A DNA stretch of 64,000 bases from Botrimarina mediterranea (GTDB lineage Bacteria; Planctomycetota; Planctomycetia; Pirellulales; Lacipirellulaceae), in assembly GCF_007753265.1 (NCBI RefSeq), contig NZ_CP036349.1, positions 2,327,363 through 2,391,362 on the forward strand, in the 5' to 3' direction. The notes under the pieces were generated by a model. That model did not search any database. It was not told the origin of the DNA and saw only the letters and a list, made by a program, of their open reading frames with translations. The position numbers and the translations under genes are program-made. Shown here piece by piece: positions 2,196 through 31,981 of this stretch. The stretch's first letter is position 1. Each line of letters starts with the position of its first letter.

Positions 2196-3623
2196 TCACT
2201 CCTTCGCCGCCGCGTCATCGGGCAGTGCGTCTGACTTTGGCTGGGAAGCATCGTCCTCGTCCGATTCGCCTGTCACTGAGTCAACTGCCACCGAGTCGAG
2301 CGTCAGCGTGCCGTTGATATAATAGGCAATCGATTTGCCATCGGGGCTGATCCGGACCTCCTCGACCGCGTGTTCCCCCGGTGGCTCGACTTGGCGGATC
2401 TTCGACCCATCGGTAGCGGACCAGAGGGTCACTTCACCGCTGGGGGCGCCGATCGCCAGCACCCCGTCGGCGGTCATGTCGAAGGTCGTCAAGAGCGGAT
2501 GGGGAGAGCGGCCCGAGGACTCCTTGAACCACCAACCGACGGGGCCTTTCGGCGAATCGCCATCTTCCGAATCGGCGTCGATTCGCATCGTCGGCTTCCA
2601 TCCTAGATTGATCTGCTTGGTGAATTCACGCTCCCCGAGGTCGAGCACGTAGATGGAGTCGTGACTTCCAATGAGGAACTGCTGGCTGTCAGCGGAAAAT
2701 TTTGTCTCTTGAAAGCTGTCGTCGAATGGGATCGAGAAGACCCTTCGCCGCGTGGCCAGGTCGAACACCTCGACCATGAATCGCGTGTCACCGCGCTGGC
2801 GCCGCTCTGCGACCACAGCGAACCACTTGCCATCCGGGGAGACGCCCCTCAGACCGGATGGTTTGACTTCTTCGGTGGCGATAATCGAATTAATTTCGCC
2901 GCTGGCCGCGTCGAGGAAGACGTAGTAATCATCCTTGGTAAAGATAGTGACCGGTACGCCATCCCGCCTCGCGAGTGGCGGCAAGAGGCGAACGGTGTCA
3001 CCGACGATTTCTCCACGGCTGCGCACCATGTCGATGCGTTTCTCACCGCGTTGGCCTCGGGGGATGATGGAGATGCCGACGTTGGTGCCGGCCGGTCCCT
3101 GGAGGGCGGCAGTGGTTGCTTTCTCACCTCGCCCCAGGAGATTACGCCGCTCCCCAAACTCGTGCGTCGCGACGATCTCGTCTCCGACTTTGATCTTGGC
3201 TTCGTCGGCCGGACTGCCAGGAGTGACGCTGCTTACCAACAGCTTCCCCCCTTCTTCATCGTAACGCAAACCAACGACCCCTGGCGGCAGTCGCCAGCGG
3301 ATGTTCGCGACTTGCCCCGTCGTCAGGTTCATCGCTTGGGTAGCGCGGGTGGATACCATGAGCGCCTGCTTGCTGTCGCGCGTCACGGCAATCGTGAAGG
3401 GCGTGATCGACTGCTCATGCTGGACCCGGAAGCCATCGACGGCAACGACCATCACCCCCTTTCCCGATGAGAACAGGACTTGTTTGCTGTCGGGCGTGAA
3501 CTGCAACACGTTCGCCGAGTAGGGCTTACCCGAGCGGCTGAGAACACGGAGTGTGTAGTACTCCGCACTCGCGGAACCAGCTACGAAACTAACCAAGAGG
3601 AAGCAGGCGAAACATCGAAACAT
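2196..3623 (-). CDS. secreted WD40-like/PDZ domain protein
   Basis: A 475-residue exported protein. The ATG at 3623 gives a clean signal peptide (MFRCFACFLLVSFVAGSASA, cleavage after about residue 20), preceded by GAGGGCC; the in-frame ATG at 3695 would spoil it. The mature part begins with beta-propeller-like repeats ('FTPDSKQVLFSSG', 'VTRDSKQALMVS'), interrupted at about residues 115-190 by a PDZ domain (VTPGSPADEAKIKVGDEI), then continues with further 'SPDGKWFAVV', 'SADSQQFLIG' and 'SPDGKSIAYY' blades. The C-terminus is acidic and low-complexity. Such proteins in planctomycetes are periplasmic scaffolds of unknown target. Its 5' end abuts the left copy of the 250-bp repeat, so the island boundary lies immediately upstream of this gene and its native promoter may have been displaced or may lie in the repeat. 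Confidence 0.8.
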   Translation of the reverse strand: MFRCFACFLLVSFVAGSASAEYYTLRVLSRSGKPYSANVLQFTPDSKQVLFSSGKGVMVVAVDGFRVQHEQSITPFTIAVTRDSKQALMVSTRATQAMNLTTGQVANIRWRLPPGVVGLRYDEEGGKLLVSSVTPGSPADEAKIKVGDEIVATHEFGERRNLLGRGEKATTAALQGPAGTNVGISIIPRGQRGEKRIDMVRSRGEIVGDTVRLLPPLARRDGVPVTIFTKDDYYVFLDAASGEINSIIATEEVKPSGLRGVSPDGKWFAVVAERRQRGDTRFMVEVFDLATRRRVFSIPFDDSFQETKFSADSQQFLIGSHDSIYVLDLGEREFTKQINLGWKPTMRIDADSEDGDSPKGPVGWWFKESSGRSPHPLLTTFDMTADGVLAIGAPSGEVTLWSATDGSKIRQVEPPGEHAVEEVRISPDGKSIAYYINGTLTLDSVAVDSVTGESDEDDASQPKSDALPDDAAAKE

Positions 3624-3627
3624 GGGA

Positions 3628-3876
3628 TGGCCCTCAGCATGGGTGCATAGCTCGACAAAGGACGGGATTATAAACGGGCTACCACTGACTCTCAATCAGC
3701 CGCCCAGCCCACCGACGCCCATCCAAGCACCCTCAAAGCTCGCCCCCATCAACGCCTCTCCCTCGCGCCCCTTCCGCTGTCACCCTCACGTCGGCCTCGC
3801 CCCGCCGTATGGGCCGACGTGAGGGGGATGGCGGGAGGCGGCGCGGTCCCCCTTCTGCCGAGCCGGAACTGAGGTC
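3628..3876. repeat. left copy of 250-bp direct repeat (island boundary)
   Basis: An imperfect direct repeat, with its partner at 24673-24919. The two are collinear over their whole length, with an offset of 21045 bp on the left half and 21043 bp on the right half, so only about two bases of indel separate them. Identical blocks are 3628-3646, 3691-3702 and a 74-bp core at 3765-3838; 3849-3867 and 3871-3876 are also shared. The core holds a perfect inverted repeat. The copies bracket the defence gene island on both sides. Confidence 0.9.
3783..3825. terminator. perfect 14-bp stem with 15-nt loop in the repeat core
   Basis: Bases 3783-3796 pair perfectly with 3812-3825 (CCCTCACGTCGGCC against its reverse complement) around loop 3797-3811, which contains TCGCCCCGCCG. 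There is no T-tract, so it is not a canonical intrinsic terminator, but it could insulate the divergent genes on either side. The same hairpin recurs at 24826-24868, and a related one at 15432-15503. Confidence 0.6.
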
Positions 3877-4068: not shown

Positions 4069-7000
4069 ATGCAAGACGGCGGCTCGGCCTCTCCTACTAG
4101 CCCTGACGAAGATGCCGAGCGCACGGGAAGCGAATCGGCTCCGCACCTTGCCATCGAGGCGGCCGACTCGTTCAACTACGCCGCCTGGCAGAACGCCGTG
4201 CCGCTGCTGCGAAGTGTGTCGATCGACAACTCGGGTGGCCCTGAACTCTCTTCGCTCGTCGTCGAGCTGAAAGCCTCGCCGGGTTTCGCCCGCGACCGGC
4301 GGTGGACAATCGATCGCGTCGGGGCGGGTGAGACGCTCACGCTAAAAGACGTCGATCTCGAAATCGACCCAGCTTATCTCGACGGCCTGGACGAGGCAGA
4401 GCGAGGCGTCCTGACGTTTCGACTGATACGCAAGGGCGAAGCTCTTCACGAGACAACGCACGTGCTGCGTGTGCTCGCCCGCGACGAGTGGGGAGGCATG
4501 TCGACGATGGGGGAACTGTTGCCGGCGTTTGTGACCCCTAACGACCCCGCGCTGGCCACGCTGCTCCGGTCGGCCGCGACGCTGCTCGGCCAACACGGTC
4601 ACCCGACCGCTCTGGACGGTTATCAGTCCGGCGACCCCAATCGCGCTTACCTGCTTGCCGCGTCACTCTGGTCCGCCGTGGCAGGCCGGTCTCTTATCTA
4701 CGCCAACCCGCCGGGGAGTTTCGAGCAAGTCGGGCAAAAGACACGTCGTGTCGGGACAGTGCTGAGCGACGGACTAGCGACGTGTCTTGATACGTCGCTG
4801 TTGTTCGCATCGGCCCTGGAAGCGGTGGGGCTCAATCCCGTTCTGGTGATGACCCAAGGACACTGCTTCACCGGCGTCTGGCTGGTCGAGAGGTCGTTCA
4901 AGCGGCTCGTCGAACGGGATTGCAGCGAGCCGCGCAAAGCAATCGCCGCGAAAGAGCTGCTGGTCTTCGAAACAACGATGGTGACCCACCAACCGCCCGG
5001 GCGATTCCCCGATGCGGTGACGATGGCGACCGGCGCCATTTCCGAGGAGAAAGAACACGAGTTCGTCGCGGTCGTCGACGTGTCGCGGGCCCGGATGTCC
5101 CAGGTCCTGCCGCTGGCTTCTCACTCCGCCCGGAAAGAAGAAGTCCCCGATGAGCTGGAGTCGGGTCCGCCTCCGTTGCCGGCGTCGCCCGGTTACGATT
5201 CGGCGCCGGCGACCGAAACCGAAGAGCGTCCCCAAAGTCCTGCTGGCCGCATCGAGCGCTGGCAGCGGAAGCTGCTCGACCTGTCGTTACGCAACAGGCT
5301 GCTCAACTTTCGCCCTTCCAAGCAGACCGTTCCGATCTTGTGCCCCGATGTGTCGCGGCTGGAGGATCGACTGGCCGACGGGGCTCGCCTGCGGCTGGTG
5401 TCTCTCGCCGACGGGAACCCCCTGGGGCAGCGGGACGCGGAGCTGCACCAGAAACGAACGAAGAAGGACATCGACTGGGAGTTCGCTCGGCAGGCGTTTG
5501 ACCGGGACGAGGTGGTCTCTCCGGTCGATCTGCGGGACCTCGATGTACGGCTCACGGCGCTCTACCGGAAGGTGCGCAGCGACTTGGCGGAAGGTGGGTC
5601 GAACACCCTATATCTGGCGGTCGGATTCCTGCGCTGGAAGCAAAACCCCACCGACGAGAAGACCTACCGGGCGCCCCTACTGTTGGTGCCGGTGAAGTTG
5701 ACGCGGCGCAGCGCTTCTTCTCCCTACTACCTTGCCAACCATGAAGACGAGGTCCGCTTCAATGCCACCTTGCTCCAGTTGCTAAAGAAGGACTTCGACT
5801 GCGACCTCACGGAGTTCGAGTCAGACTTGCCAATGGACGACAGCGGCGTCGACGTGCCGCTGGTGCTAGACCGGATGCGGCAAGCGGTGCGTGACATCCC
5901 GGGTTTTGAGGTGGTTGAAGAAGCGGCGATTGCGCCCTTTTCGTTCGCCAAGTACCTGATGTGGAAGGACTTGGTCGATCGGGTCGGACAACTAGAGCAC
6001 AACCGCGTCGTGCGTCACTTGATCCACGAGCCCGACAAAGCGTTTGCGGCGGACGGCGTCGGCCCGATGCCCCAACCGCACGAGATCGATACGCGGTATG
6101 CCTCGGCGGAGATCGTCCACCCGCTGCCGGCCGACTCGTCGCAGCTCGCGGCGGTGATGGCCGCCTCCGAAGGGCATGACATGGTGATTGTCGGCCCCCC
6201 CGGCACGGGGAAGAGTCAGACGATCGCGAATCTTATCGCGCAGTGTCTCTCCGTCGGCAAGACGGTTCTGTTTGTCGCGGAGAAGACGGCGGCCCTCGAT
6301 GTGGTGCACCGTCGGCTCAAGTCGCACGGGCTCGGCGACTGCTGCGTCGAACTCCACTCCAACAAAGCTGAGCGACGGCGATTCCTCGATCAGCTCGAGG
6401 CTTCTTGGAAGCATCGTGGCAAAGGGAAGGCGTCCGAGTGGGTGACGATCAACGAGCGGCTGCAAGTCCGCCGTGACCAACTTAACGCCTACGCCGCGGC
6501 GGTGCATACGGCCGACTCCAACGGCTGGACCGCTTATCGCGCAATGGGGGAATGCGTGCGGGGCCGCCAGGTGGAGACGCCCCGGCTCGATTGGCCCGCG
6601 TCGGTCCGCCACGATCAAGCGGCGTATACGCGGCTCCAGACGACCGTCGGGGAACTCGCCTCGACGTTCCAGGCCGTTCCGGCTGAGGCGGCGCTGTCGC
6701 GGGTGCAGGCGACCGAGTGGTCGATGGCTTGGGAGACGGGGCTGTTGGAATCCTGTCGTCAGCTCGAATCGGCGTCCGCCTCGCTGGCGGCCTCGATCAC
6801 CGCGCTCTCAGCGAAACTTGAAACTCCGGAATTGGCGGACGTCTCCTCGGCGCAACTGACCCACCTCTACCGGTTGGGTCACGAGTTGACACGCCCTAGT
6901 CTTCCCGCCGCCGAAATCCTGCTCCACGAAAGTCTCGACGCGCTCCCGTCGACATTGGACGAACGACGTGGTCTGGTTGAGCGTAGGGACCAAGCGAATG

Positions 7001-10000
7001 ACTCGCTGCAGAACGCACTGCTTGGCTACTGCCAAGCGCTCGGCGTCTCAGCGGCGGGTCCGGTTCCCGAAGCGATGAAGAGTCGGCTCTACCGATTAGC
7101 GAACGAGTTGGTGCGCCCTGAACTTCCGCCACCCGAACTGGTATTCCACCAGCAGTTCGATGAATTGACGCTAGCCCTTGCTGAGCGGCCGGCGCAACTG
7201 CGGGGTCGCGATCAGGCCTTCGACGCAATCGAAGCGCGCTCGTTCAACCCGGCTCTCATCGAACGCATCAAGGTTCAGGACTTGGAAGCCGAGTGGGGGA
7301 AGGCCTCAGGGTCGTTCTGGCCCGTCTCGTTGCTCAAGAAGAGCGGCGTGAAGAAGAAGTTGAAGGCGTACATGAAGGCGGGAGGAACTGCCGAACCCGA
7401 AATCGACCTGCCCCTGCTCGGCGAATACCGAAGTGCGTGTGAGCGCCTGACGGAGAACCTCGCAGCGCTGGGCCTCCCGCCGCACCTGCAAGCCGCCGTT
7501 GAGAAAGACGCCGGCGCGCTGGACTCCCAGCTCCCCTTGGCCGTGCGTCTGCGGGAAGCGATCATCGCGGCGGGACTCACCCCGGACGGAGTCGGCAAGA
7601 CTTCGCAGGGCGCTCTCGAACCCCTGATCGAGGCGGCGCGGCGCCTCTATCCACCCGGGCGGGAGGTGGAAACTCTCCGCGTGAGCCTGGCGGAGAACCT
7701 CGCTGCGCTCGGCTTGCCCTCCGAGCTTCAGGCCGAGGTCACACGGGACGCTAGCGCCCTGGACGCGCAGGTGAAAGCGGTTCGGAGCATTCGTGAAGCG
7801 GCCACCGCCCTGGGCTTCTCGGGCGACCGCCGGTCGCAGACGCTGCAAGCAATTCTAAGGGCGGAAGAGCAGCCCCGCCGCGAGGCGGCCGCCGACTGCT
7901 GCCGGTCGGCCAAGGCGTTTCAAGTCGCCTGGGTGGCGTACACGAAACAAGCCGCCTCTCAGCCGGTCGCATCCGCGTCGGCGACCGTGGTGGCCGACGC
8001 GGCCGCCCAAGCGCAACAGGTGCTTGCTCGTCGCACGGCGCTGAGACAGTGGACCGCTTGGGTGGCGGTCAAGAAGCGGTCGGAGCAGCTCGGTTTAGGG
8101 TCGTTTGTCGAGGCGCTCGAGAACGGAAACATGACTGCGGCAGAAGCCGCGGCGCAGTTTCAGTTGGCCTACGCTCGGTGGTGGCTCCCCGCGGTGGTCG
8201 ACAAGCGCGAGCCGCTGCGAGCTTTTCAAAAGTTCCTTCAGGAAGACGCCATCGAAGAGTTTTGTAGCCTGGACGACCAGGCACGCCGAGCCGCGGCGCC
8301 GAGGGCTCGGCACGCCGTGCTCCATGGCCTGCCGCCGACCGATCAGGTTCCCCGTAAGTCCGAGCTGGGGCTGCTGCGTCATCAGATGGGCCTCAAGCGC
8401 CCGAGCAAGTCGATCCGCGAAGTGATTGGGGGCATGCCCGACACGTTTGGGAAGCTGGCCCCTTGTTTGCTGATGTCGCCCCTGTCGATCGCGCAGTACC
8501 TGCCCGCCGACCAGGCCCTGTTCGATGTGGTGGTGTTTGACGAGGCGTCGCAGATTGCCACCTGGGATGCGATCGGCGCCATCGCCCGCGGCAAGCAGAC
8601 CATTATTGTCGGCGATCCCAAGCAGCTCCCGCCGACCAACTTCTTTGGCCGGACCGACAGTGATGAGGACAGTGCGGAACTCGAGGACCATGAAAAGGAC
8701 CTGGAGAGTATCCTGGACGAAGCGCAGGCTTCGGGATTGCCCACCCTTCAGCTCAACTGGCACTACCGCAGCCGCCATGAATCGCTGATCGCCTTCTCCA
8801 ACTGGAACTACTACGGCAACCAGCTCGTGACGTTCCCCGCCGCCGAGTCGGAGCACCGGGGGGTCTCGCTGAAGCACGTGAAGGGGGCGCTGTACGATCG
8901 AGGCAAAAGCCGCACCAATCGCCAGGAGGCCGAGGCAATCGTAGCAGACGCGGTGGAGCGGATGCGGCGGTGCCTACGCAAGCCAGAAACAGAGCGGCTT
9001 ACCTATGGCGTGGTGACCTTCAACAGCCAGCAGCAGGAGTTGATTCAGGACTTATTCGACGACGCGCAGCGGCAGCACCCCGAGCTGGAGTGGTTCTTCT
9101 CCGACGATCGCATCGAACCGACGGCCGTCAAGAACCTGGAAAACGTGCAGGGAGACGAACGGGACGTGATGATGTTCTCGATCACGTTCGGCTTCGACGC
9201 CGTGGGGAAGTTCCCGGTTGATTTTGGGGCGATCAATCGCGACGGGGGCGAACGCCGCCTCAATGTGGCGGTGACTCGTGCACGGCAAGAGCTGGTTGTT
9301 TTCGCATGCTTCTTGCCCGACCAACTCCGTGCCGAGCGGTCCGGCGCCCGCGGCGTTCACGACCTCAAGGCGTTCCTGGAATACGCCGAGAAGGGGCCCG
9401 AAGCGATCGTCGCACGGGTCGAGGGGTCGCTGGGGGGGCTCGAGTCTCCGCTAGAGGAGGCGGTCGCTGCGGCGCTGGAGCAGCGGGGCTGGCGCATCGA
9501 CCCTCAAGTGGGCGTTTCCGGCTTCCGCATCGATCTGGGGGTCGTGCATCCCGACAAGCCAGGGGCTTACCTGGCAGGCGTCGAGTGCGACGGCGCGACG
9601 TACCATCGTTCGGCGGTGGCGCGGGATCGTGACAAGACGAGGCAACAGGTCTTGGAGAACTTGGGATGGACGATCCTACGGGTCTGGTCGACCGACTGGT
9701 GGTACGACCCGGAGTCGGCCATTGAGCAGCTCCACGCCGCGCTCAATGAGCAACTAGACCTGACACGTAAGGAAGCCGCTGGCGAGGCCTCGGCCGGCGG
9801 TCTCGATACCCCGCTAAGCGACGACACGACGGAGCCCCTTGATTCGTTGCCAGAGGCGCCCGGCGGCTGCAAGCTGGACGACTTGCCGGCGGACGACGGC
9901 GTCAACGAGTTGGCGGAAGAGCGATCGAGAGAGCTGAAGGCCCGTCCGCAGCTTGTCGCGAAGCAGGCCGCCCAGGCAGCCCGGCCGCTCTACGTCCGCG

Positions 10001-10482
10001 CCGCGTTGGCGGACGCCTCGGTCCATCAAGACCGCTTCTTTGATGACGACTATTCCGAAACGCTCAAGAGAATGGCGCAGGCCGTTCTTGAGTCGCAAGG
10101 ACCGATTCTCGACGACGCTTTGGCGCGCGAGTTGGCCAGGGCACACGGGTTTGGCAGAACGGGCGCCCGGATCAAACAACGGGTATTGGAGCTGCTGCCC
10201 GGCGTCATCTCCACCGTCGAGTCCGTGGGAACGTTCCTGTGGCCCGGGGCCGGCGCCCAAGAGTCGATCCCCTTTCGGTACTCGGCTGACGACGCGGAGC
10301 GTCGCAGCATCAACGAGGTCGCGATGCCCGAGCTTGTCGGCCTAGTTCGTGCTCGTCCCGACCTCGTGGCCAGCGACGATCCGGCGCTCGCGTTGGCTCG
10401 GGAGATCGGGCTAGCGCGGCTCGCCCGCTCGGCGAGGGAGCGGCTGGAGGAAGCCCTGGAGTCTTGTCATTCCGATGGGTAA
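4069..10482 (+). CDS. Hhe-like DUF4011-helicase-Vsr-like nuclease-DUF3320 defence protein
   Basis: A 2137-residue multidomain protein. The ATG is preceded by GAAAGG at suitable distance. In order: an N-terminal beta domain; a transglutaminase-like segment with Cys239 (LATCLDTSLLF) and His265 (QGHCF); the DUF4011 signature from about residue 394 (RIERWQRKLLDLSLRNRLLN); a superfamily 1 helicase core with Walker A GPPGTGKS at 709-716, a long coiled insertion to about 1400, Walker B DEAS at 1491-1494, GDPKQLPP at 1515-1522, motif V-like NVQGDERD near 1692 and motif VI-like NVAVTRAR at 1732-1739; a Vsr/DUF559-like nuclease at about 1790-1890 (Asp1822, Glu1839, Asp1841); and a C-terminal DUF3320-like helical domain. 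This architecture matches the single-gene Hhe anti-phage system of the Gao 2020 survey as I recall it. The insertion carries two tandem duplications (see findings). It leads the island and may share transcription with the next two genes. Confidence 0.93.
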   Translation: MQDGGSASPTSPDEDAERTGSESAPHLAIEAADSFNYAAWQNAVPLLRSVSIDNSGGPELSSLVVELKASPGFARDRRWTIDRVGAGETLTLKDVDLEIDPAYLDGLDEAERGVLTFRLIRKGEALHETTHVLRVLARDEWGGMSTMGELLPAFVTPNDPALATLLRSAATLLGQHGHPTALDGYQSGDPNRAYLLAASLWSAVAGRSLIYANPPGSFEQVGQKTRRVGTVLSDGLATCLDTSLLFASALEAVGLNPVLVMTQGHCFTGVWLVERSFKRLVERDCSEPRKAIAAKELLVFETTMVTHQPPGRFPDAVTMATGAISEEKEHEFVAVVDVSRARMSQVLPLASHSARKEEVPDELESGPPPLPASPGYDSAPATETEERPQSPAGRIERWQRKLLDLSLRNRLLNFRPSKQTVPILCPDVSRLEDRLADGARLRLVSLADGNPLGQRDAELHQKRTKKDIDWEFARQAFDRDEVVSPVDLRDLDVRLTALYRKVRSDLAEGGSNTLYLAVGFLRWKQNPTDEKTYRAPLLLVPVKLTRRSASSPYYLANHEDEVRFNATLLQLLKKDFDCDLTEFESDLPMDDSGVDVPLVLDRMRQAVRDIPGFEVVEEAAIAPFSFAKYLMWKDLVDRVGQLEHNRVVRHLIHEPDKAFAADGVGPMPQPHEIDTRYASAEIVHPLPADSSQLAAVMAASEGHDMVIVGPPGTGKSQTIANLIAQCLSVGKTVLFVAEKTAALDVVHRRLKSHGLGDCCVELHSNKAERRRFLDQLEASWKHRGKGKASEWVTINERLQVRRDQLNAYAAAVHTADSNGWTAYRAMGECVRGRQVETPRLDWPASVRHDQAAYTRLQTTVGELASTFQAVPAEAALSRVQATEWSMAWETGLLESCRQLESASASLAASITALSAKLETPELADVSSAQLTHLYRLGHELTRPSLPAAEILLHESLDALPSTLDERRGLVERRDQANDSLQNALLGYCQALGVSAAGPVPEAMKSRLYRLANELVRPELPPPELVFHQQFDELTLALAERPAQLRGRDQAFDAIEARSFNPALIERIKVQDLEAEWGKASGSFWPVSLLKKSGVKKKLKAYMKAGGTAEPEIDLPLLGEYRSACERLTENLAALGLPPHLQAAVEKDAGALDSQLPLAVRLREAIIAAGLTPDGVGKTSQGALEPLIEAARRLYPPGREVETLRVSLAENLAALGLPSELQAEVTRDASALDAQVKAVRSIREAATALGFSGDRRSQTLQAILRAEEQPRREAAADCCRSAKAFQVAWVAYTKQAASQPVASASATVVADAAAQAQQVLARRTALRQWTAWVAVKKRSEQLGLGSFVEALENGNMTAAEAAAQFQLAYARWWLPAVVDKREPLRAFQKFLQEDAIEEFCSLDDQARRAAAPRARHAVLHGLPPTDQVPRKSELGLLRHQMGLKRPSKSIREVIGGMPDTFGKLAPCLLMSPLSIAQYLPADQALFDVVVFDEASQIATWDAIGAIARGKQTIIVGDPKQLPPTNFFGRTDSDEDSAELEDHEKDLESILDEAQASGLPTLQLNWHYRSRHESLIAFSNWNYYGNQLVTFPAAESEHRGVSLKHVKGALYDRGKSRTNRQEAEAIVADAVERMRRCLRKPETERLTYGVVTFNSQQQELIQDLFDDAQRQHPELEWFFSDDRIEPTAVKNLENVQGDERDVMMFSITFGFDAVGKFPVDFGAINRDGGERRLNVAVTRARQELVVFACFLPDQLRAERSGARGVHDLKAFLEYAEKGPEAIVARVEGSLGGLESPLEEAVAAALEQRGWRIDPQVGVSGFRIDLGVVHPDKPGAYLAGVECDGATYHRSAVARDRDKTRQQVLENLGWTILRVWSTDWWYDPESAIEQLHAALNEQLDLTRKEAAGEASAGGLDTPLSDDTTEPLDSLPEAPGGCKLDDLPADDGVNELAEERSRELKARPQLVAKQAAQAARPLYVRAALADASVHQDRFFDDDYSETLKRMAQAVLESQGPILDDALARELARAHGFGRTGARIKQRVLELLPGVISTVESVGTFLWPGAGAQESIPFRYSADDAERRSINEVAMPELVGLVRARPDLVASDDPALALAREIGLARLARSARERLEEALESCHSDG

Positions 10483-10583
10483 CGACGCTGGTTCGGCCCG
10501 CAATGGGCAGGACGCACATTTTCATTCAGTACCGCGAGTTCATCGTCATCACTTGCAGTGCGTAAGGGCGGAAGGAGTTACCG

Positions 10584-11825
10584 GTGTTCAAGTTCTTGCA
10601 CGCGGCGGACATCCATCTGGACAGCCCCTTGAGGGGATTGGACCGGTACGAAGGCGCGCCGGCCGACCAGATCCGCGGCGCGACCCGACGGGCTTTCGAG
10701 AACCTGGTCGAGGTCGCGTTGCGGGAAGAGGTTGCGCTGGTGGTGCTCGCTGGCGACCTCTACGACGGGGATTGGCGGGACTTCAACACGGGGCTCTTCT
10801 TCGTCAAACAGATGGCGAGATTGAAGGAGGCGGGCATCCCTGCGTATGCAGTCAGCGGCAATCACGACGCGACGAGCCGGATCACACGCCGCCTCCCCTT
10901 GCCCGAGAACGTCCATGTATTCCCGACTGGGGAGGCGACGACGGTTCGCCTCGAAGGGGTCGACGTGGCTATCCACGGCCAGAGTTTTGCGGAGCAATGC
11001 ACGACTGAGGACTTGGCGAAGAACTATCCGGCGGCCGTCTCCGGCGTTTTCAATCTCGGCGTGCTGCACACCAGCATGACGGGGCGAGACGGTCACGGCA
11101 GCTACGCCCCTTGTTCGGAGGCTTGCCTTCGCGACCGAGGTTACGATTACTGGGCGTTGGGCCACATTCATCAACGGGAAGTCTTATCCGGCGCAACGAC
11201 GATCGCCTATCCGGGCAACATCCAGGGGCGTCACATCCGTGAAACGGGTCCCAAGGGTTGCCTGGTCGTACACGTCGATGACAACCTGGCCGCCGACCCG
11301 GTGTTTGAGCCGCTCGACGTACTCAGGTGGGAAGTCGCCCGAGTTGAGCTGGAGGGCGCTGAAGGTCACAGCGACGCCCTTGGCCGAGTGGGGGACGCGC
11401 TCAGCCAAGTGGTTGAACAAGCCGAGGGCCGCTTCGTAGCCGTTCGCGTGGTCCTGGAGGGGGCGACTTCGCTTTCCGAAGCGATTGCTGCCGCGGGTCG
11501 CCAGTGGGTGGCGGACATCCGGGCGTTGGCGCTCGACATCGGCGCCGAGAGGCTCTGGCTCGAAAAGGTGGTCAACGAGACGACCCCGCCGGTCGATTCG
11601 CGGCCTTCGGCAGAAGAGGACACGCCGCGGGCGGAAGTCGCCTCGCTGGTGGGGGATCTGCTGGCTTCGGCGACTGCCGGCGCGGACATCGGCGTGGACC
11701 TCAGCGACCTCCAGCAGAAACTACCCAGCGAACTTTCGGACGCACTCAGGACGGCTGACTCGGATTGGTGGCGGGACGTTCTGGGCGAGGCTCGGTCGCG
11801 ACTGCTGGCGGAGCTAAAGGGGTGA
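10584..11825 (+). CDS. YhaO/SbcD-like metallophosphoesterase (Mre11 family nuclease)
   Basis: A 413-residue calcineurin-like phosphoesterase of the DNA repair exonuclease type. The GTG at 10584 is preceded by GAAGGAG with 6-base spacing. Metal ligands are visible in family order: HAADIHLDS at 6-14, GDLYD at 57-61, GNHD at 92-95, His162 in VLHTS and GHIH at 193-196. Residues from about 220 onward form the capping domain and an acidic linker. Mre11-type enzymes cut DNA ends together with a Rad50-type ATPase, and the next gene, 3 bp downstream, encodes just such a partner. In the YhaO/YhaN branch the role is less settled than for SbcCD. It starts 101 bp after the giant helicase gene on the same strand, so it could be a housekeeping-like repair pair captured in the island or a working part of a larger nuclease system; this is inference. 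Confidence 0.9.
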   Translation: MFKFLHAADIHLDSPLRGLDRYEGAPADQIRGATRRAFENLVEVALREEVALVVLAGDLYDGDWRDFNTGLFFVKQMARLKEAGIPAYAVSGNHDATSRITRRLPLPENVHVFPTGEATTVRLEGVDVAIHGQSFAEQCTTEDLAKNYPAAVSGVFNLGVLHTSMTGRDGHGSYAPCSEACLRDRGYDYWALGHIHQREVLSGATTIAYPGNIQGRHIRETGPKGCLVVHVDDNLAADPVFEPLDVLRWEVARVELEGAEGHSDALGRVGDALSQVVEQAEGRFVAVRVVLEGATSLSEAIAAAGRQWVADIRALALDIGAERLWLEKVVNETTPPVDSRPSAEEDTPRAEVASLVGDLLASATAGADIGVDLSDLQQKLPSELSDALRTADSDWWRDVLGEARSRLLAELKG

Positions 11826-11828
11826 ACG

Positions 11829-14800
11829 ATGCACATTGAGCAATTGCGACTCACGGCGTTCGGGCCGTTCACGGGATGCTCCGTGAGTCTACGCCCGGGG
11901 CTCAACATTCTTTACGGGCCCAATGAGGCGGGTAAGAGTTCGGCCTTGCGGGCGATCCACTCGCTGCTATTCGGCGTCCCCTCGAGGACGGCGGACAATT
12001 TCCTGCACAGCTACGGGCAACTCCGGGTTGGCGGCGTGCTGGTTCGGGGAGATGACCAGCGACTGGAGTGCGTGAGGCGTAAAGGGAATAAGGCGACGCT
12101 GCGGGACGGCGAGGACGACAAGCAGCTGGACGAGAGCGTGCTCGACCGATTTCTGGGAGCGGTCGACGCGGAGTTTTTCCGTTCGGTCTTCGGGATCGAC
12201 CACGAGCGGCTTCGCGCTGGGGGAGAAGAGGTGATTCGCGGGGAAGGACGGGTCGGCGAGTTGTTGTTCGCCGCTGGCGGCGTCTCCCACCTGCGCGAGA
12301 TCCAGCAGAAGCTCGAAACGGAAACGTCGCAATTGTTCAGGGCTCGGGCCCAACAACCGAGCATCAACAGCGCAGTGTCGCGCTTAGACCAGCTCCGCGC
12401 CGAGGTGCGGGAAGCCCAGGTTTCTTCAGAGGAATGGGGACGGCACGACGCTGAGAGAACCAGGCTGTTGGAGCAAGCGGAGCGACTGGGAGTTGAACTA
12501 GCCGACGCCGAAGCGACCAAGGAGCGGCTGTCACGAATCAGCGCGGCGTGGCCAACGCTCAGTAGTTGGAAAGCGAAATGCGCAGACCTCCAGGCGTTGG
12601 AGGAAGCCGTCTTGCTGCCCGTGGACGCCGAGAAGCGGCGCACGGAGGCAAACGAGCAACTGAGTCTAGCTCATTCAACTCTGCGGCTAGCACAGTCGCA
12701 GTTGGAGCGGGTCAATAAACAATTGGCAGAACTTCAGACGCCCGAGGCGGTCCTGAGAGAGCAAGAACGTATCGACCAGCTCTACCGACGACTCGGAAGC
12801 CACGAGAAGAACGCCGAAGACCGCGGCACGCTGGAAGCGAGAAGGCGAGCGGCCCGAAACAACGCCCGGCAGACGGTCGATAGGCTCGGCTGGAGCGTCT
12901 CCCTAGAAGAAGTCGAGAAGAGTCGCTTAGCGGACCACAAGAAGGTCACGATCCGCACGCTGGCGAAACAACACGGCGAGATCGTGCAGCGGCTCAGCAG
13001 CGCGACGAAGCTGAACGCCAAGTCGGGCAAGCGACTCCAAACGCTTGAGCAGGAGCTTACCGGCGCATCTGTCGGGAGCGAAACCAAGGGGCTCACGCAA
13101 GCACTGGCGGAAGCGAATTCGTTGCTCGATGTCTTCGCAGGGCTCGAGGCAAGACGGGACACGATAAATCGCCTCCGGCGTGAAGCGGACGAGGCGCTCG
13201 CTCGTCTTCCGTTGTGGAGTGGCACGCTGGATGAGCTGCGACGGATGAAGACGCCGACAGAGGCGGCTGTCGAAGAGTTCGACGAGCGGCGACGCGACAT
13301 CACGACGCGACTCAGCGCCCTTCAGGAACGAATGCAAGAGAATACCGAGAGCGAAGCCAGCCTGTTGGAAAAGCTGGCGGCTCTCGAAAAAGGGGACGTG
13401 GTTCCCACCGAAGCAGAGCTTCTGGAAGCCCGAGCGATCCGCGATCGTGGCGTGCGGCTCGCGGTCGACACCCTTGAGGGGCGAACGCCGGAATCGCGGG
13501 AAATTGAGAAGTTCATCGGCGAGGTCCGGGAGGGAGAAGCTTTATCGTCGGCCCTCGGGCCGAGCGTGCTGCGGGCGGACAAGGTGGTCGATCGCCTGCG
13601 GCGTGAGGCGGACCATGTTGCGGCGAAGGCCCAACTGGTCACTCAGCGAGACTCGCTTAGCCGTCAGAGGCAGAACCTCACGTCGAGCATTGAGGCAGCC
13701 GAAGCCGAGCAGCGTCGCTACGCCGAGGAGTGGAACAGCCGATGGGCCTCAAGCGGTCTGACTCCCCTTTCGCCACCCGAGATGCGTTCGTGGCTGCGTC
13801 AGCACGCCCAGCTGCTGGAGTCGGCTAGCGAGGTCACTTCGCAGTCCGAGGCGCTCGACGCGGACGAGCGACGATGCGAGTCGATAAGAACCGACTTGCT
13901 GAAAGAGCTGTCGGCCGTCGGCACGGAAGCTAAGGGAACGGGCCTGGATGGGCTCGCCGACCTCGCGCAACACCACATCGAGAGCTTGCGGAGCGAGCGG
14001 GCGCGTCGAGAGCAGCTAGCGGCGGACATCGAGCGGGTGAAAGTGGAATCGGACGAAGCTGGCGAGGAGCTGCGCGAAGCGGAAGAGTTTCTAAGCGCGT
14101 GGCGGGTCTCTTGGGCTGAAGCGATGGCTCTGCTCCAGTTGCCGGCCGACGCGTTACCCGAAGAAGCCGAGTCCATGCTCTCGAATCTTGATCAGCTGTT
14201 CCGCGAACTGGACGAGGCGGACGGTTTTCGGGGGAGGGTTTACGGAATCGACAAGACTGCCGAAGAATTCTCCCTGGCCGCCCAAGAACTCGCGTCCGTC
14301 ATCGCCCCCGACCTCGCGGGACGGCCGGTAGAAGAGCTGGTCGCCACGTTAAACACTCGGGTCAGCGAAGCGCGTCGCGTCGATCAACAGGTCAAGACGC
14401 TAACCGAACAGCGTGCAACGCAGGAAGGGCTGGTGCGTGACGCCGAGGCGAGCGCCGCGAAGTCTCAGGCGGTCTTGGATGGCCTCCTCAGCGAAGCGGG
14501 GTGCACGAACACTCAGGAACTGTCAAAGGCAATCGAGCGTTCTGCTCAAAAGCGAGCGCTGCAACAGCAAGTCGAGGAGCTTAAGACACAACTCGCGCCG
14601 CATTGCGGTGGGCAGACGTTGGACGAGTTCCAGGAGGACGCGACGACGGAAGACCCCGACCGCCTAGCGAGCAAGATGGCAGAGGTGGAAGGCCTTGTAA
14701 CTCGGCTGAGAGAACAGCGAGAGGCGTCGCTAACGGCGGCGGAACGTGAAGCGAGTGCGCTGACGAGGTTCGACGGGGGCGATGCGGCCGCGGAGAAAGA

Positions 14801-15356
14801 AGCCTTGCGGCAGTCGTTGCTTACGCAGGTAGAAGAAGACGTGCGCGAGTACGTTGTAACGACGGTGGCCTCGAATCTCTTACGGCGCGCCATCGAAAGG
14901 TACCAAGAACGCTCGCAAGGCCCCGTCTTATCCCTGGCGAGCGATCGCTTCCAGCAGTTGACGTGCGGAGCGTTCGCAGGCTTGAAAGCCGACTACGACG
15001 AGTCCGGGAATGACATTCTGGTCGGTGTACGGGCGGATGGTAGTAGCCCGCTACGCGTGGAAGGGATGAGCGAAGGCTCACGGGATCAACTCTATCTGGC
15101 GTTGCGGCTGGCGACGCTTGAACACTGGTTCGACCATCACGAGCCCGTCCCCTTCATTGTTGACGATGTCTTGTTGAGCTTCGATGATGCACGGGCGGAA
15201 GCGACCTTGGGGGCGCTGATAGAATTGTCGGCTCGCACGCAAGTGCTCTTCTTCACCCACCACGACCACCTCGTCTCCCTGGCAAGGAAAGTTAGCGATA
15301 TCCACAGCGGCGATTCGAGCGTGCATGTCGTGACGGCTTGGAACGGCCAAAGTTGA
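11829..15356 (+). CDS. YhaN-like SMC/Rad50-type AAA ATPase
   Basis: A 1175-residue ATPase with ABC half-domains at both ends and a long coiled coil between. The N-terminal lobe has Walker A GPNEAGKSS at residues 30-38, followed by a Q-loop region; the C-terminal lobe carries the signature-like EGMSEGSRDQLYLALRL and Walker B PFIVDDVLLSFDD close to residue 1120, with a D-loop/His switch (FFTHHDHL) after it. The middle is rich in Glu, Arg, Leu and Ala with heptad spacing, as expected of a coiled coil; no clear CxxC zinc hook is visible, in line with YhaN rather than Rad50/SbcC. The gene begins 3 bp after the nuclease stop, so the two are translationally linked and very likely form one complex that senses and processes DNA ends. 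A stem-loop follows the stop and may end the transcript. Confidence 0.9.
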   Translation: MHIEQLRLTAFGPFTGCSVSLRPGLNILYGPNEAGKSSALRAIHSLLFGVPSRTADNFLHSYGQLRVGGVLVRGDDQRLECVRRKGNKATLRDGEDDKQLDESVLDRFLGAVDAEFFRSVFGIDHERLRAGGEEVIRGEGRVGELLFAAGGVSHLREIQQKLETETSQLFRARAQQPSINSAVSRLDQLRAEVREAQVSSEEWGRHDAERTRLLEQAERLGVELADAEATKERLSRISAAWPTLSSWKAKCADLQALEEAVLLPVDAEKRRTEANEQLSLAHSTLRLAQSQLERVNKQLAELQTPEAVLREQERIDQLYRRLGSHEKNAEDRGTLEARRRAARNNARQTVDRLGWSVSLEEVEKSRLADHKKVTIRTLAKQHGEIVQRLSSATKLNAKSGKRLQTLEQELTGASVGSETKGLTQALAEANSLLDVFAGLEARRDTINRLRREADEALARLPLWSGTLDELRRMKTPTEAAVEEFDERRRDITTRLSALQERMQENTESEASLLEKLAALEKGDVVPTEAELLEARAIRDRGVRLAVDTLEGRTPESREIEKFIGEVREGEALSSALGPSVLRADKVVDRLRREADHVAAKAQLVTQRDSLSRQRQNLTSSIEAAEAEQRRYAEEWNSRWASSGLTPLSPPEMRSWLRQHAQLLESASEVTSQSEALDADERRCESIRTDLLKELSAVGTEAKGTGLDGLADLAQHHIESLRSERARREQLAADIERVKVESDEAGEELREAEEFLSAWRVSWAEAMALLQLPADALPEEAESMLSNLDQLFRELDEADGFRGRVYGIDKTAEEFSLAAQELASVIAPDLAGRPVEELVATLNTRVSEARRVDQQVKTLTEQRATQEGLVRDAEASAAKSQAVLDGLLSEAGCTNTQELSKAIERSAQKRALQQQVEELKTQLAPHCGGQTLDEFQEDATTEDPDRLASKMAEVEGLVTRLREQREASLTAAEREASALTRFDGGDAAAEKEALRQSLLTQVEEDVREYVVTTVASNLLRRAIERYQERSQGPVLSLASDRFQQLTCGAFAGLKADYDESGNDILVGVRADGSSPLRVEGMSEGSRDQLYLALRLATLEHWFDHHEPVPFIVDDVLLSFDDARAEATLGALIELSARTQVLFFTHHDHLVSLARKVSDIHSGDSSVHVVTAWNGQS

Positions 15357-15431
15357 ACAAGGCCGTATCCTTCGGCTTCGAGGACGCGAGTCCGGTTGCT
15401 GAAACGTTAGATTCGCAAAATCTCGCTTCGG

Positions 15432-15503
15432 CTTCCTTCCCTTCATCCGTATGGCCCTCGCCCCGCCGATTGGGGCCGTGCGGAGGAAGGGGAAGAAGCC
15501 CGC
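15432..15503. terminator. stem-loop after the YhaN-like gene, related to the boundary repeat hairpin
   Basis: An imperfect long hairpin about 75 bp past the stop. The left arm ends in CCGTATGGCCC and the right arm begins GGGGCCGTGCGG, with outer CTTCC/GGAAG pairing. The loop carries CTCGCCCCGCCG, the same loop string as the hairpin in the 74-bp core of the boundary repeats, though the stems differ in sequence. A transcription terminator or insulator between the YhaON pair and the IetAS-like operon is the simplest role. Confidence 0.55.
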
Positions 15504-15684: not shown

Positions 15685-15948
15685 ATGCCCTACGAGCGTT
15701 CCTACGAGATTGAACAGCGCCTCAAAGCGGTCCTCCGTTGCATCGCGACGGGGAGCTACTCGACCCCGCAGATCGCCGAGGAGCTGGGCGTGTCGGTGCC
15801 CACCGTCTCGCGCAATGTGCTCGCCCTACGCGAACGCGGCCACGCCATCCGCTCCGAGAAGCGAGGCGATGGCTGGCGGTACGTCCTAGAGGGAACCACC
15901 GGCGCCGAGAAAGACACCCCCCAACCCCGGAAAGGCGCCCACGCATGA
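15685..15948 (+). CDS. helix-turn-helix regulator of the IetAS-like operon
   Basis: An 87-residue DNA-binding protein. GAGGAGAG precedes the ATG. The winged-helix/HTH_11-like core is at about residues 10-65: a first helix (IEQRLKAVLRCIATG), the turn and recognition helix (TPQIAEELGVSVPTVSRNVLALRERG) and a beta wing (IRSEKRGDGWRYVLE). The C-terminal 20 residues are polar and probably disordered. Its stop overlaps the start of the AAA ATPase gene by four bases (ATGA), which ties its expression to the operon. It most likely controls the ATPase-subtilase pair, perhaps through the inverted repeat at 15617-15635. The IetAS pairs I know of are usually described as two genes, so a dedicated HTH gene is worth noting. 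Confidence 0.85.
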   Translation: MPYERSYEIEQRLKAVLRCIATGSYSTPQIAEELGVSVPTVSRNVLALRERGHAIRSEKRGDGWRYVLEGTTGAEKDTPQPRKGAHA

Positions 15949-16952
15949 AAGCCGAGATGATCAAGAGGATCGTCCGCGCGATCGCTGACGGGTCGCAGGA
16001 GGACTTGTCGCGATTGGCCCAGCGGGTCGTCGAGACGGAGCGGGAGCGCGGCCACGAGCGGTTGGCGGGCGAGCTGTCGCAGATCCTCGCGGGGGGCAAA
16101 TCCGCCAAACCATCCCGCCCGACTACGCAGGACCCGGGGAGTCATCTCCGCGAACTGCCGCTGAGCCGGCGCAGCGGCGAGCTGCTGCTGTCGGTACTCC
16201 CGCGCGAGTCGCTCGAACACCACATGGTGCTCCCGCCAGCGGTCGAGGAGCGGTTTGCGCGGGTCGAGCGCGAGTACGCCGCACGCGAACGCTTGGGCGC
16301 CTATGGTCTCCGCAATCGCAAGAGAATCCTGCTCTACGGCCGCCCCGGTTGCGGCAAATCCCTCGGCGCCCAGCGGCTGGCGTGGAACACCGGCCTGCCG
16401 CTGCTGAAGGTCCGCTTCGACGCCCTGATCTCGTCGTTTTTTGGGGAATCGGCCACAAACCTGCGGGCCGTGTTCGACGCCGCCCGCGAGCGTCCCTGCG
16501 TGCTGCTGCTGGACGAGTGCGACTTCATCGCCCGCTCGCGCACCAGCGGCCGCGACATTGGCGAGGCCTCCCGAATCGTCAACTCGCTCCTGCAATTGAT
16601 GGAAGAGTACGACGCCCCGGGCCTGTTGGTGGCGACCACGAACATTGACACCGAGCTCGACAACGCCCTGTTCCGCCGCTTCGACGAGATCCTGGAGGTC
16701 CCTCCCCCGGGTCCGGCCGAAATCGAGCAGCTCCTGAAGATGACGCTCAGCGCGGTCGAGGTTTCGCCGAGCGTCAAGTGGCGTCCCTTGGTGGGCAAAC
16801 TAGCCGGCTCTTCGGCGGCCATCGTCGTGAAAGTCGCGCGCGACGCGGCCAAAGCGGCGGTGCTCGAGGGTAAGAAGGTGGTCACACAGACGCTGCTGGA
16901 AGGGGCAATCGCCGATCGGCGCTGCGAAGGAGAGGACGCAGCAGGCGCCTAA
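15945..16952 (+). CDS. ietA: AAA+ ATPase, IetA-like partner of the subtilase
   Basis: A 335-residue protein with an N-terminal helical region (1-90) and a C-terminal AAA+ module of the FtsH/CDC48 kind. Walker A is GRPGCGKS at 132-139, Walker B LLLDECD at about 187-193, sensor 1 ATTNID at 230-235, and an arginine-finger pair at 244-245 in ALFRRFDE. The GFRD-type pore loop of classical unfoldases appears only as SSFFGES (163-169). It is translated from an ATGA overlap with the HTH gene, and the subtilase gene begins 3 bp after its stop. AAA ATPase plus S8 protease pairs are known as IetAS, first described as a plasmid stability toxin-antitoxin on Ti plasmids and later as an anti-phage system; here the ATPase would be the controlling component. 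Assignment to IetA rests on arrangement plus domain types. Confidence 0.85.
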   Translation: MKAEMIKRIVRAIADGSQEDLSRLAQRVVETERERGHERLAGELSQILAGGKSAKPSRPTTQDPGSHLRELPLSRRSGELLLSVLPRESLEHHMVLPPAVEERFARVEREYAARERLGAYGLRNRKRILLYGRPGCGKSLGAQRLAWNTGLPLLKVRFDALISSFFGESATNLRAVFDAARERPCVLLLDECDFIARSRTSGRDIGEASRIVNSLLQLMEEYDAPGLLVATTNIDTELDNALFRRFDEILEVPPPGPAEIEQLLKMTLSAVEVSPSVKWRPLVGKLAGSSAAIVVKVARDAAKAAVLEGKKVVTQTLLEGAIADRRCEGEDAAGA

Positions 16953-16955
16953 GTC

Positions 16956-20154: not shown

Positions 20155-23100
20155 TTGGCTAAAAAACGCCGACCAACCTGGGACCCATTCACCCGGCCAC
20201 AGCCGACGTGGGAGTGCTTGACGCACCCCGCGCTCCTGGTGCAGGCCTGGAAGAAGACACACAGTTACCTTCGTTCAAAGAGCTGGTTTGCGGACATACT
20301 TGAGCTCGACTTGTCGGCAGTCGATCTTAAGGAGTATATCGATGTGCTCCGTCAAGATATCTGCGATGGACCAGAGCGCTTTGCTCCCTCGCCCATGCGA
20401 CTGGTACCGGCGCCCAAGTCGGACCTCTATCCGTGGGTGTTCAAAGACGGGGCGTGGCAACCGGGGCCAAAGACAAAGAAGTTCGTCCGACCGCTGGCGC
20501 ACCTAGCCTTACGCGACCAGGTGCTCGCGACGGCGGTAATGATCTGTTTGGCGGACTGTGTCGAGACCATTCAAGGCGACAGCGACCTACCGACCGCAGA
20601 CGCGAGGAAGGCGGGTGTCACAAGCTATGGGAATCGACTTTTGGTCGACTGGGTCAGCGGTGACGCAACGCCGCAATCGGGTCACTTCACGTGGGGCAAT
20701 GCAGCACTTTATCGCAAGTACTACCTAGACTACCAAGCGTTCCTAAAACGCCCCATCGACATCTGCCGTCAGCAACTTTCACTTACGCCGGAGGACGCTG
20801 AGCTTGGTGTAGTTACGATCGACCTACAAGGTTTCTACGACGCAATTCCAGTCGACGAGGCAATCGCCGCCTTGAAGAACCTCTCCAAGGAAGCGGGGCA
20901 TAGAAACGACCTTCGCTTCTGGCAGGCCGTTAAGAGTTGCTTTGCCTGGACGTGGGACAAGTCGGACGCCCAGTCTAAAACGTTGCTTAAGAGCAAGAAG
21001 CTGCCGTCTGGGCTTCCCCAGGGGCTCGTCGCCGCCGGGTTCTTTAGCAACGCGTACATGGTCGATTTTGACCGCAGGCTGGCCCGAACGATTAAGCGAG
21101 CAAAGCCGGACGTCGGAAAGGGGTGGCGTATCCTCGACTACTGCCGGTACGTCGATGACATCCGACTGGTGGTCGCCGGACCGATCGCCTCCGATGGAGA
21201 AGACATACCACGGTTGTGCGGCGACTGGATAAACAAGCAGTTGACGAAGTATATCAAAGGGCAGCAGTGTAATGATGGAAAGTCGGCTTTCGCCACGCAT
21301 GAAGAGGTGGAGAGTCGGACGATGCGACCGGTCTTGATGGCGGCGATCCAGGACAAGCTTAGTGGCCCGATCGATCTCCAGTCGCTCGAAGAGGCGGGGC
21401 TAGCCCTCGACGGCTTACTGAACACCGTTGGTAACAGTGAAGCCGTCGGAGGCGCTACGGAAGCAAAGCCGCAGGACGACCAGCACGACAAGACGCTTGC
21501 TTTGGAGCGGATACACGCCCCTCGCCACAGCGTGCGCGACGACACCGTAGCGCGCTTCGCGGCGTTTCGACAGCTCAAGGCACTCCGGGCTCGCCGTTTC
21601 TTGCTTGCGGCTGAGCCGGCCGGAGTACGCTCGACGGCTCTAAGACGGCTCGACGCGGAGGTCGAGTCCTCGGCGCGGCGGATGGTTTGGATGTGGAGTC
21701 GCGATCCTTCCCTTGTGATCGTCCTACGACATGCGATGAACCTTTGCCCTACGCCAGAGCTGATCGAGCCGGTGCTCGAAGCGCTTCGGTCGGTAATAGG
21801 GCCGGACGGACTCAAGAAGCAGGACGGTAAAGAGGAGGCATTTGACCAGGCCGCTGCGTGGTACACCGCCGGCGAGCTGCTCAAGGCGGGGGTGATTGAG
21901 ACGGGGTTCGAGGCGTCTCCTTCCGAGCTGCCGGAGAAGGCCGACTTAGAGGGGTACCGGGAGTCACTTGCGGATTTTTCTGAAGAGCTGTTGAGAGAGG
22001 CTCGCACGCCATGGTTTGTCGCGCGTCAGGCGGCTGTGTTCCTGCTGTCTGTAGGTCGCATACCGTTGCCGTCCACCGCACTCCGCAAAACGATCGGCAA
22101 CGACTATATCGCTCTACTCAAAGTTGCGAAAGGCGGCATTTCTCTAGCAGGCGACGGCAGCCGCTTGCTGCCACTCCTTCTCGTACTCGACCAACTGTGT
22201 AACCATCGGTCGAAAACCCTCACGAGACTCAGAAAGTACTTCTTGTCCCTGACGCCTGAAGAAGCGCCGCACGAGGTGGAACGACTAGTGCTCGCGAATC
22301 TTCAGATTGCGATCGATCTTCGTGCGCATCTAATTGCGAAGCGTTCCTCGAAACGGAAGTATGTGCCGCTGATTGCCACACTACCCAACGACGACGAGCG
22401 CGACAAACACGAAACCACCGATCTTGGCAGGAACGCAACTCTTGGCGAAGTAATGGGGGCGCGGGACAACCCATTCGCACAGGAAACGGCAGCGCTGCAG
22501 CTCCTGAAAAAGCTCGCGGAAGCCTTGAGAGTGGGCGAGATCCACCAAGAACAACTGCAACCGCAAAGCTTGCGGCTCAGTATCAACGCGCCCTGGCGGA
22601 CCCTAAAAAATCCTCGTCGCAAGCAGACTCTCGGCGTGCATCAAATTGACAGCAAACATGCCGACCCTCGCTATGTCAATCCGACGTGGGCCAACGGGGA
22701 ACGGGGGGAGCTGTACGCGCTGGGGCGGCTCCTCCGGTCCGCTGTTCTGGGTTCCAATGACTTCACTGCTTCGAGCTTCGAGCTGTCGCAGTATCGTGAC
22801 GGCTACTCCGGCCTCAAGAGTTCTTGGTTCAAGCGCCAGCACGGCCTATCGACCGACTTATCGGCCTCGGAATGGGACACGACCAGCCGGTCTCCCTGGT
22901 TCGCTTCCCTGGTAGCGCATCTGCTTAGCTGGCCAGGCAGCCGCGTTGATCCGGACGGCGAGTTTACCCAACTCCGGACCGTGGACGGCCTGCTGAAAGT
23001 AGTCAGCTCGCGGCTAACGGTGCTCAAAAAGATGTTTGGTCGCGCGACCGACCTTCCCGTGTATGACTGCGACCTACGCCTTGAGCTTAAGTCTCCGCCA

Positions 23101-27109: not shown

Positions 27110-27157
27110 GCGGCCGCAAGCAACCGCTCGCTTCGGGCTCGCTACAAGGAAGAACCT

Positions 27158-28327: not shown

Positions 28328-28369
28328 TTGCCGTCCGTAACGCAGCGATGCGAGAGGCATCCAAGAATT

Positions 28370-30001: not shown

Positions 30002-30035
30002 CTCCGAAACACTAACCTCCGAAAGCAGGTTCACT

Positions 30036-30746: not shown

Positions 30747-30748
30747 TC

Positions 30749-31891: not shown

Positions 31892-31981
31892 GTGACGCGG
31901 TTCGGTTTTAGCTAGGCCACGTCGAGTGACAAACCCGATAGAAATCACAAGATAGCTAAACTTTCGTCAAGGAGGTCAAGG

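Follow-up and report, generated by a model that had tools for sequence, protein, structure and literature searches.

We analyzed a 64,000-nucleotide stretch of Botrimarina mediterranea DNA (assembly GCF_007753265.1, contig NZ_CP036349.1, positions 2,327,363 to 2,391,362 of the forward strand), hereafter the window. It carries a very large gene of the anti-phage family ProA, followed by the genes of a Mre11-Rad50-type nuclease-ATPase pair, YhaO and YhaN (Table 1). All three genes lie on one strand, with 101 bp between ProA and YhaO and 3 bp between YhaO and YhaN. A scan of the 101-bp gap returned no promoter-like or terminator-like match, and its folding was nothing unusual against shuffled sequences (z, +0.80). 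Weak terminator-like matches inside the genes numbered 19 versus 14.1 expected, which is about the chance level. A strong hairpin lies just beyond YhaN and is a possible transcription-unit end or processing signal. This arrangement of one strand, short gaps, and no internal terminator is that of a compound ProA and Mre11-Rad50 operon, and the three genes would be cotranscribed. An earlier note on this DNA, made from the sequence alone, had the coordinates, the shared direction, and the 101-bp spacing exactly right. Its statement that the pair comes before any hairpin is true of the gaps, and the separating promoter and terminator that it named as evidence against an operon were not seen in the 101-bp gap.

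Table 1. Features of the ProA-YhaO-YhaN locus and its surroundings (window positions)
Feature	Position	Strand	Basis or remark
ProA-type anti-phage gene, 2137 amino acids (aa)	4069..10482	+	NCBIfam NF058533, Pfam domains
ProA-YhaO gap, 101 bp	10483..10583		Shine-Dalgarno-like AAGGAG just before YhaO GTG start
YhaO, Mre11/SbcD-type metallophosphoesterase-nuclease, 413 aa	10584..11825	+	Pfam Metallophos, alignment, AlphaFold2, PDB match
YhaN, Rad50/SMC-like ABC ATPase, 1175 aa	11829..15356	+	Pfam AAA_27, motif search
Strong hairpin 3' of YhaN	15425..15503		-51.4 kcal/mol, z -5.04; no U tract
Helix-turn-helix open reading frame (ORF), 87 aa	15685..15948
Helix-turn-helix ORF, IetA-like and IetS-like genes, whole span	15685..19538		PADLOC matches for IetA and IetS
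Reverse transcriptase-nitrilase fusion	20155..23949		Drt1a match, 1197.8 bits
280-bp direct repeat, left copy	3597..3876		81% identical to right copy
280-bp direct repeat, right copy	24642..24919
Metal efflux/copper-handling genes	25854..63968		Translations, by eye

The first gene encodes ProA

The first gene scored 2079.2 bits against the NCBIfam model NF058533 ("anti-phage protein ProA," antiphage_ProA; cutoff, 1500), with residues 36 to 2117 matched to positions 1 to 1903 of the 1903-position model. Hhe is a single-gene DUF4011-helicase-Vsr system, and the earlier note had called this gene Hhe-like. The gene does have the DUF4011, superfamily 1 (SF1) helicase, and Vsr-type nuclease common to Hhe, but it reached only 784 of the 2000 bits needed for the NCBIfam Hhe model (NF042953), and in PADLOC the PDC-S37 model (1167.5 bits) outscored Hhe (531.2 bits). 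The NCBIfam cutoffs and the PADLOC ranking rule out Hhe, and that name does not stand.

The Pfam content was as expected for ProA, with all domains above their cutoffs: DUF4011 (residues 401 to 572), the AAA_11/AAA_12 helicase, a MTES_1575/Vsr-type nuclease (residues 1796 to 1892), and a DUF3320 winged helix (residues 1988 to 2037). The SF1 helicase is split and its motifs are intact, with Walker A at residue 709, DEAS at residue 1491, and motif VI at about residue 1732. The gene therefore agrees with ProA (NF058533/PDC-S37) in its full-length match and domain content and differs in the Mre11-Rad50-type pair that follows it. Neither NCBIfam nor PADLOC returned a ProB- or ProC-type companion family for the partner genes. 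From the name alone we guess at a link between ProA and the DefenseFinder system Prometheus, which the passages that we found only list by name, without gene content.

A transglutaminase-like domain would be expected at the N terminus of ProA. Within the 350-residue N-terminal region, C239 and H265 are invariant in 13 aligned rows. A structural model of this region (mean predicted local distance difference test score [pLDDT], 76.3) had transglutaminase 2 as its best Foldseek match (E, 5.4e-4), a weak match (template modeling score [TM-score], 0.21) mixed with unrelated beta-proteins. A transglutaminase-like domain is possible in this region. A survey of HEPN proteins (PMC3710099) describes giant proteins of the same domain-string class, joining transglutaminase, superfamily I helicase, Vsr restriction endonuclease, and winged-helix domains (MTES_1575) and lacking modification genes; the available passages of that survey describe HEPN-fused examples and do not mention a Mre11/Rad50 partner.

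YhaO and YhaN are a Mre11-Rad50-type pair

YhaO matched Pfam Metallophos at 54.1 bits, and in an alignment of 12 rows its metal-site motifs were intact (D9, H11, D58, N93, H94, H162, H194, and H196). The sequence search alone already retrieved Mre11 and SbcD chains, and the AlphaFold2 model of YhaO (mean pLDDT, 82.6) had P. furiosus Mre11 as its best PDB match (E, 2.1e-16). YhaO has the Mre11 fold with its metal ligands. YhaN matched Pfam AAA_27 at 232.4 bits and carries the motifs of an ABC ATPase, with Walker A at residue 30, the signature at residue 1081, and Walker B at residue 1111. We searched YhaN for a CxxC zinc hook and found none, so we class YhaN as Rad50-like and not as a canonical Rad50; a sequence search of solved structures gave no match to YhaN at an E of 0.001. 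The pair therefore resembles Mre11-Rad50/SbcCD in its fold, metal site, and ATPase motifs but differs in lacking the zinc hook and in sitting in a defense island. On this evidence the earlier note was correct in describing the genes as a Mre11/Rad50-like nuclease-ATPase pair. The genome also holds a second, diverged pair elsewhere, whose YhaO is 31% identical and has a YhaN beside it.

The trio is conserved in a second genome of the family

A genome from another genus of the same family (G357) carries positions 3530 to 15364 of the window contiguously at 87.0% identity (an 11.8-kb block). The ProA-YhaO gap is part of this conservation, with 85 of 101 columns identical. The ratios of nonsynonymous to synonymous divergence (dN/dS) between the two genomes were 0.112 for ProA, 0.147 for YhaO, and 0.166 for YhaN, at synonymous divergences (dS) of 0.47, 0.30, and 0.40, respectively, showing purifying selection on all three genes. 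The block stops 8 bp past the YhaN stop codon, with transposase genes outside it on either side, so G357 does not show where the unit really begins and ends.

ProA scored above its cutoff in 33 of the 294 genomes of a sample of the phylum Planctomycetota, and YhaO or YhaN was found in the flanks of none of the other 32 ProA genes, some flanks being limited by contig ends. An order-level sample of 196 genomes had the trio only in the window's genome and G357. A planctomycete-wide association of ProA with the pair was not found in either sample. We also found no ProA at an E of 1e-50 in three sampled genomes of the window's genus, and therefore the trio was probably acquired.

YhaO relatives occur in 95 of the 294 genomes. 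Three genomes (G380, G435, and G459) have YhaO at 64 to 66% identity and no ProA in the examined stretch. In G380, which is of the window's genus, overlapping ORFs after the pair (YhaO, 66%) encode a 105-aa protein and an SF1 helicase distinct from ProA (locus L160, 9805 to 18372). The C terminus of this helicase just missed the MTES_1575 cutoff (35.5 of 38.2 bits) and passed that of DUF559 (30.2 bits; cutoff, 20.6), and the locus is possibly another pair-helicase unit. In another genome (G106; L040 and L157), YhaO-YhaN is preceded on the same strand, at a distance of about 1.1 kb, by a helicase ORF distantly similar to ProA, which we did not count as ProA because it scored 185 bits against NF058533. 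A general rule coupling YhaO-YhaN to a helicase was unsupported, since, with four query helicases, a helicase turned up in the examined stretch at 3 of the 33 YhaO-YhaN loci lacking ProA and at none of 15 loci with other types of YhaO.

Mre11-Rad50-type pairs adjoin ProA in other bacteria

We surveyed the neighborhood of ProA in a genome collection, using the best 80 of 559 confirmed relatives with 10-kb flanks where available and clustering the four ORFs on each side of ProA with no family picked in advance. The most frequent neighbor was a Mre11-type phosphoesterase (11 of 80 loci), with an SbcC-like ATPase at 8 of 80 and the next family at 5 of 80. ProA has the pair, or the visible first gene of one, next to it at nine of the 80 loci (L181, L182, L183, L186, L188, L189, L190, L231, and L255). 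From the density of such genes (26 in 126 Mb of 25 genomes), adjacency would be expected at about 0.16 of 80 loci, a figure that is uncorrected for relatedness and assumes independent loci, an assumption that does not hold. In Rhizobium sp. BK650, ProA is followed by SbcD-like and SbcC-like genes with a 2-bp gap and then a 4-bp overlap; these partners passed no NCBIfam cutoff, and their PADLOC matches were weak.

Among 15 plasmid records hand-picked from the 30 listed of 377 with a ProA match, nine had a pair beside ProA and six had none. YhaO-YhaN lies downstream of ProA, the order of the window, on a plasmid of Bosea sp. Tri-49 and in G357. It lies upstream on a Rhizobium beringeri plasmid and at loci L190 and L313 and is divergent from ProA on plasmids of Mesorhizobium amorphae and M. 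loti NZP2037. SbcD-SbcC is found downstream of ProA on plasmids of Rhizobium sp. C104, Rhizobium sp. Pop5, R. phaseoli, Sinorhizobium alkalisoli, and M. loti 582. At L255 a pair is convergent with ProA. A class-level sample of Alphaproteobacteria had the pair with 2 of 11 above-cutoff ProA genes (G485 and G756), two of the 11 being without flanks. The corresponding count in the order Hyphomicrobiales was 4 of 26 (G485, G871, G984, and G1084), three of them by coordinates only, and G984 and G1084 probably represent one locus in near relatives. The association therefore recurs in unrelated genomes.

Other combinations were seen on the plasmids. Four rhizobial plasmids (L261, L263, L269, and L272) have a PDC-S06-type ATPase of 877 to 896 aa in the vicinity of ProA, in split form in L261; two of the four plasmids have no Mre11-type pair. 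On a Methylomonas koyamae plasmid (L259, 11864 to 16586), YhaO-YhaN comes after the brxL gene of a BREX operon, which includes a Shedu-type nuclease gene.

Partner-bearing ProA genes fall mostly in one clade

We built a quick maximum-likelihood tree of ProA without bootstrapping (128 rows, 476 columns) from ORFs of at least 1000 aa scoring at least 850 bits. Of the 80 genome-collection loci, 8 fell out, as did 9 of the 37 in the series L120 to L156. We labeled 119 of the rows for partners, leaving nine short-contig rows unlabeled, and coded as "no partner" five loci with Mre11-type or SbcC-like genes nearby and no adjoining matching pair (L187, L194, L196, L199, and L206). An adjoining pair was present in 21 of the 119 labeled rows, 11 of SbcD type and 10 of YhaO type. 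The clade that contains the window (starred in the tree; 26 rows) held 18 of these (10 SbcD type and 8 YhaO type) versus 1 in the 91 rows of the other large clade. Two YhaO-type rows, L190 and L313, branch outside both. The YhaO-type rows are nested among the SbcD-type rows, as expected if the pairs were exchanged. The presence of any partner requires at least 7 changes on the tree, and the three states require at least 10, but its starred branches alone force only 2 per pair type.

The surrounding island

An 87-aa helix-turn-helix ORF beyond the YhaN hairpin overlaps the ATG (position 15945) of an IetA-like ATPase gene by 4 bp, and an IetS-like S8 protease gene follows. The IetA- and IetS-like genes gave good PADLOC matches and missed their NCBIfam cutoffs (207.6 of 510 and 111.3 of 900, respectively). 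We rejected them as members of the ProA-YhaO-YhaN unit because a 588-bp gap with the strong hairpin and the helix-turn-helix ORF precede IetA. On the Rhizobium sp. Pop5 plasmid (L262, 4900 to 18724), five successive genes of the same strand encode IetA, IetS, ProA, and the SbcD-like and SbcC-like proteins, in that order, so that this plasmid holds the window's systems with the other pair type.

A reverse transcriptase-nitrilase fusion with a Drt1a match lies farther downstream. The 280-bp direct repeat flanks this island of ProA-YhaO-YhaN, the IetA-IetS-like genes, and Drt1a, has exactly these two direct copies in the whole 5.87-Mb genome, and may represent the boundaries of a unit that was inserted or can be excised. 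Each copy carries a very stable hairpin (-70 kcal/mol and z of -6.82 in the left copy). We rejected a hairpin repeat family with a common loop because the 12-base loop pattern has 9 occurrences genome-wide versus 6 for its reversed control. The genes farther downstream have, by eye, the look of metal efflux and copper handling, with RND pumps, a P-type ATPase, and heavy-metal-associated domains.

Discussion

Gene identities, intact motifs, shared direction, purifying selection, the G357 block, and recurrence were all computed directly, and the link between one ProA lineage and a Mre11-Rad50-type module is well supported because it recurs with two unrelated pairs and in several gene orders. The G357 block, the purifying selection, and the repeated finding of ProA beside Mre11-type pairs elsewhere also make the adjacency more than chance. 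We lean, with modest confidence, toward the reading that the locus is a three-gene defense unit in which the ProA helicase-nuclease is transcribed together with YhaO-YhaN. The pair would be facultative for the ProA family, and in the window's lineage it is recurrent and interchangeable, YhaO-YhaN or SbcD-SbcC filling the role. We found no paper describing ProA with Mre11/Rad50 partners in the open-access literature; most subscription papers and preprints lay outside the search.

We infer that ProA and the pair cooperate physically or functionally and, from the protein families, propose how they might do so. YhaN as an ABC ATPase clamp and YhaO as a manganese-type nuclease would recognize phage DNA, incoming or replicating, by its free, blocked, or branched ends and trim these. 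End processing would then provide an entry point for the ProA SF1 helicase, which would translocate while the Vsr/MTES_1575-type nuclease cuts the DNA and the C-terminal winged helix aids DNA binding. More speculatively, the transglutaminase-like domain could be a sensor or a second effector. DNA ends are described as targets of Rad50-type and other defense machines in the passages available from PMC10586767 and PMC12904381.

Several observations weigh against a joint unit. In Planctomycetota the trio is confined to two genomes of one family, and, among ProA genes whose flanks could be read, those closest to the window's ProA (G364, at 64% identity, G069, G152, and G473) have no Mre11-type gene in the examined stretch. 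There are 33 YhaO-YhaN loci without ProA, only 3 of them with a helicase in the examined stretch, and most ProA genes of the tree lack an adjoining pair (98 of 119 labeled rows). The contrast between the clades rests on few independent events because many partner-bearing rows are near relatives. Pairs or ProA are broken or interrupted at L182, L260, L264, L270, and L272, and therefore some units may be decaying. The earlier note's proposal that the helicase-nuclease and the pair belong together is partly supported: we found the association that it had suggested looking for in other genomes (9 of 80 loci, 9 of 15 plasmids, and 18 of 26 clade rows), but mostly in one part of the ProA tree and rarely in Planctomycetota. 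Its compound defense operon agrees with the lack of terminator or promoter signals between the units, and the three genes may function jointly.

The same evidence could be read as that of independent neighbors, with ProA and YhaO-YhaN brought together only by the clustering of mobile elements in a defense island. The IetA-IetS-like genes and the Drt1a-type reverse transcriptase beside the trio, the wide spread of YhaO relatives, the many ProA genes without a pair, the YhaO-YhaN that follows brxL in Methylomonas, and the transposase genes at the ends of the G357 block are all consistent with this. Against it stand the top rank of Mre11-type genes among the ProA neighbor families, far above IetA (1 of 80 loci), the presence of two unrelated pairs beside one ProA clade, and the SbcD-SbcC pair set 2 bp from ProA with its genes overlapping by 4 bp, and we regard independence as unlikely, although worth serious weight. 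A role in self-protection, in which YhaO-YhaN would repair chromosome breaks or clear dead-end DNA made by the ProA nuclease and so lower the cost of ProA without attacking phage, is suggested by the membership of both proteins in the Mre11/Rad50 repair class (as described in the available part of PMC10586767) and by the second, diverged pair in the genome. That second pair might suffice for a general repair need, though, and the 91-row ProA clade should then need a pair too; we find this role quite improbable.

YhaO-YhaN might instead sense DNA ends and license ProA as the effector, perhaps abortively, through its nuclease and possibly its transglutaminase-like domain. Such a sensor-effector arrangement would resemble Lamassu, in which an SMC/Rad50-like ATPase is likewise coupled to a nuclease in defense and which the accessible passages of PMC12904381 and PMC10586767 describe as an SMC-like sensor of DNA topology or ends. 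YhaN has a weak PADLOC match to LmuB (55.1 bits; E, 1.9e-15), and the conserved Cys-His pair of ProA and its weak structural similarity to transglutaminases would suit an effector. Yet among the matches listed for the five genes from 4069 to 19538 (for YhaN, the best 25 of 33 families), there was none to LmuA or LmuC; a Mre11-type nuclease and the ProA helicase are present instead, and the locus does not classify as Lamassu. YhaO also keeps all its metal ligands, so the pair looks catalytic itself. We consider this account unlikely.

Returning to the three-gene defense unit, we tentatively suggest, at somewhat less than even confidence, that one ProA lineage is the core of an undescribed compound system, with a slot filled interchangeably by two unrelated pairs (YhaO-YhaN and a small SbcD-SbcC) and a sister lineage acting alone. 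If that is so, helicase-Vsr nucleases could make up a general class that enlists end-sensing machines of the repair type, a possibility also hinted at by the YhaO-YhaN-helicase locus of G380. A defense gene catalogued as acting alone would then have a lineage that works with an end-processing machine of the Mre11-Rad50 class, and its annotation as a single-gene system would be incomplete for that lineage. The exchange of YhaO-YhaN for SbcD-SbcC at one slot would be another case of defense systems swapping repair-derived modules. The unit would also explain how giant helicase-nucleases reach phage DNA, by way of its ends, and would provide a three-gene set ready for assay.

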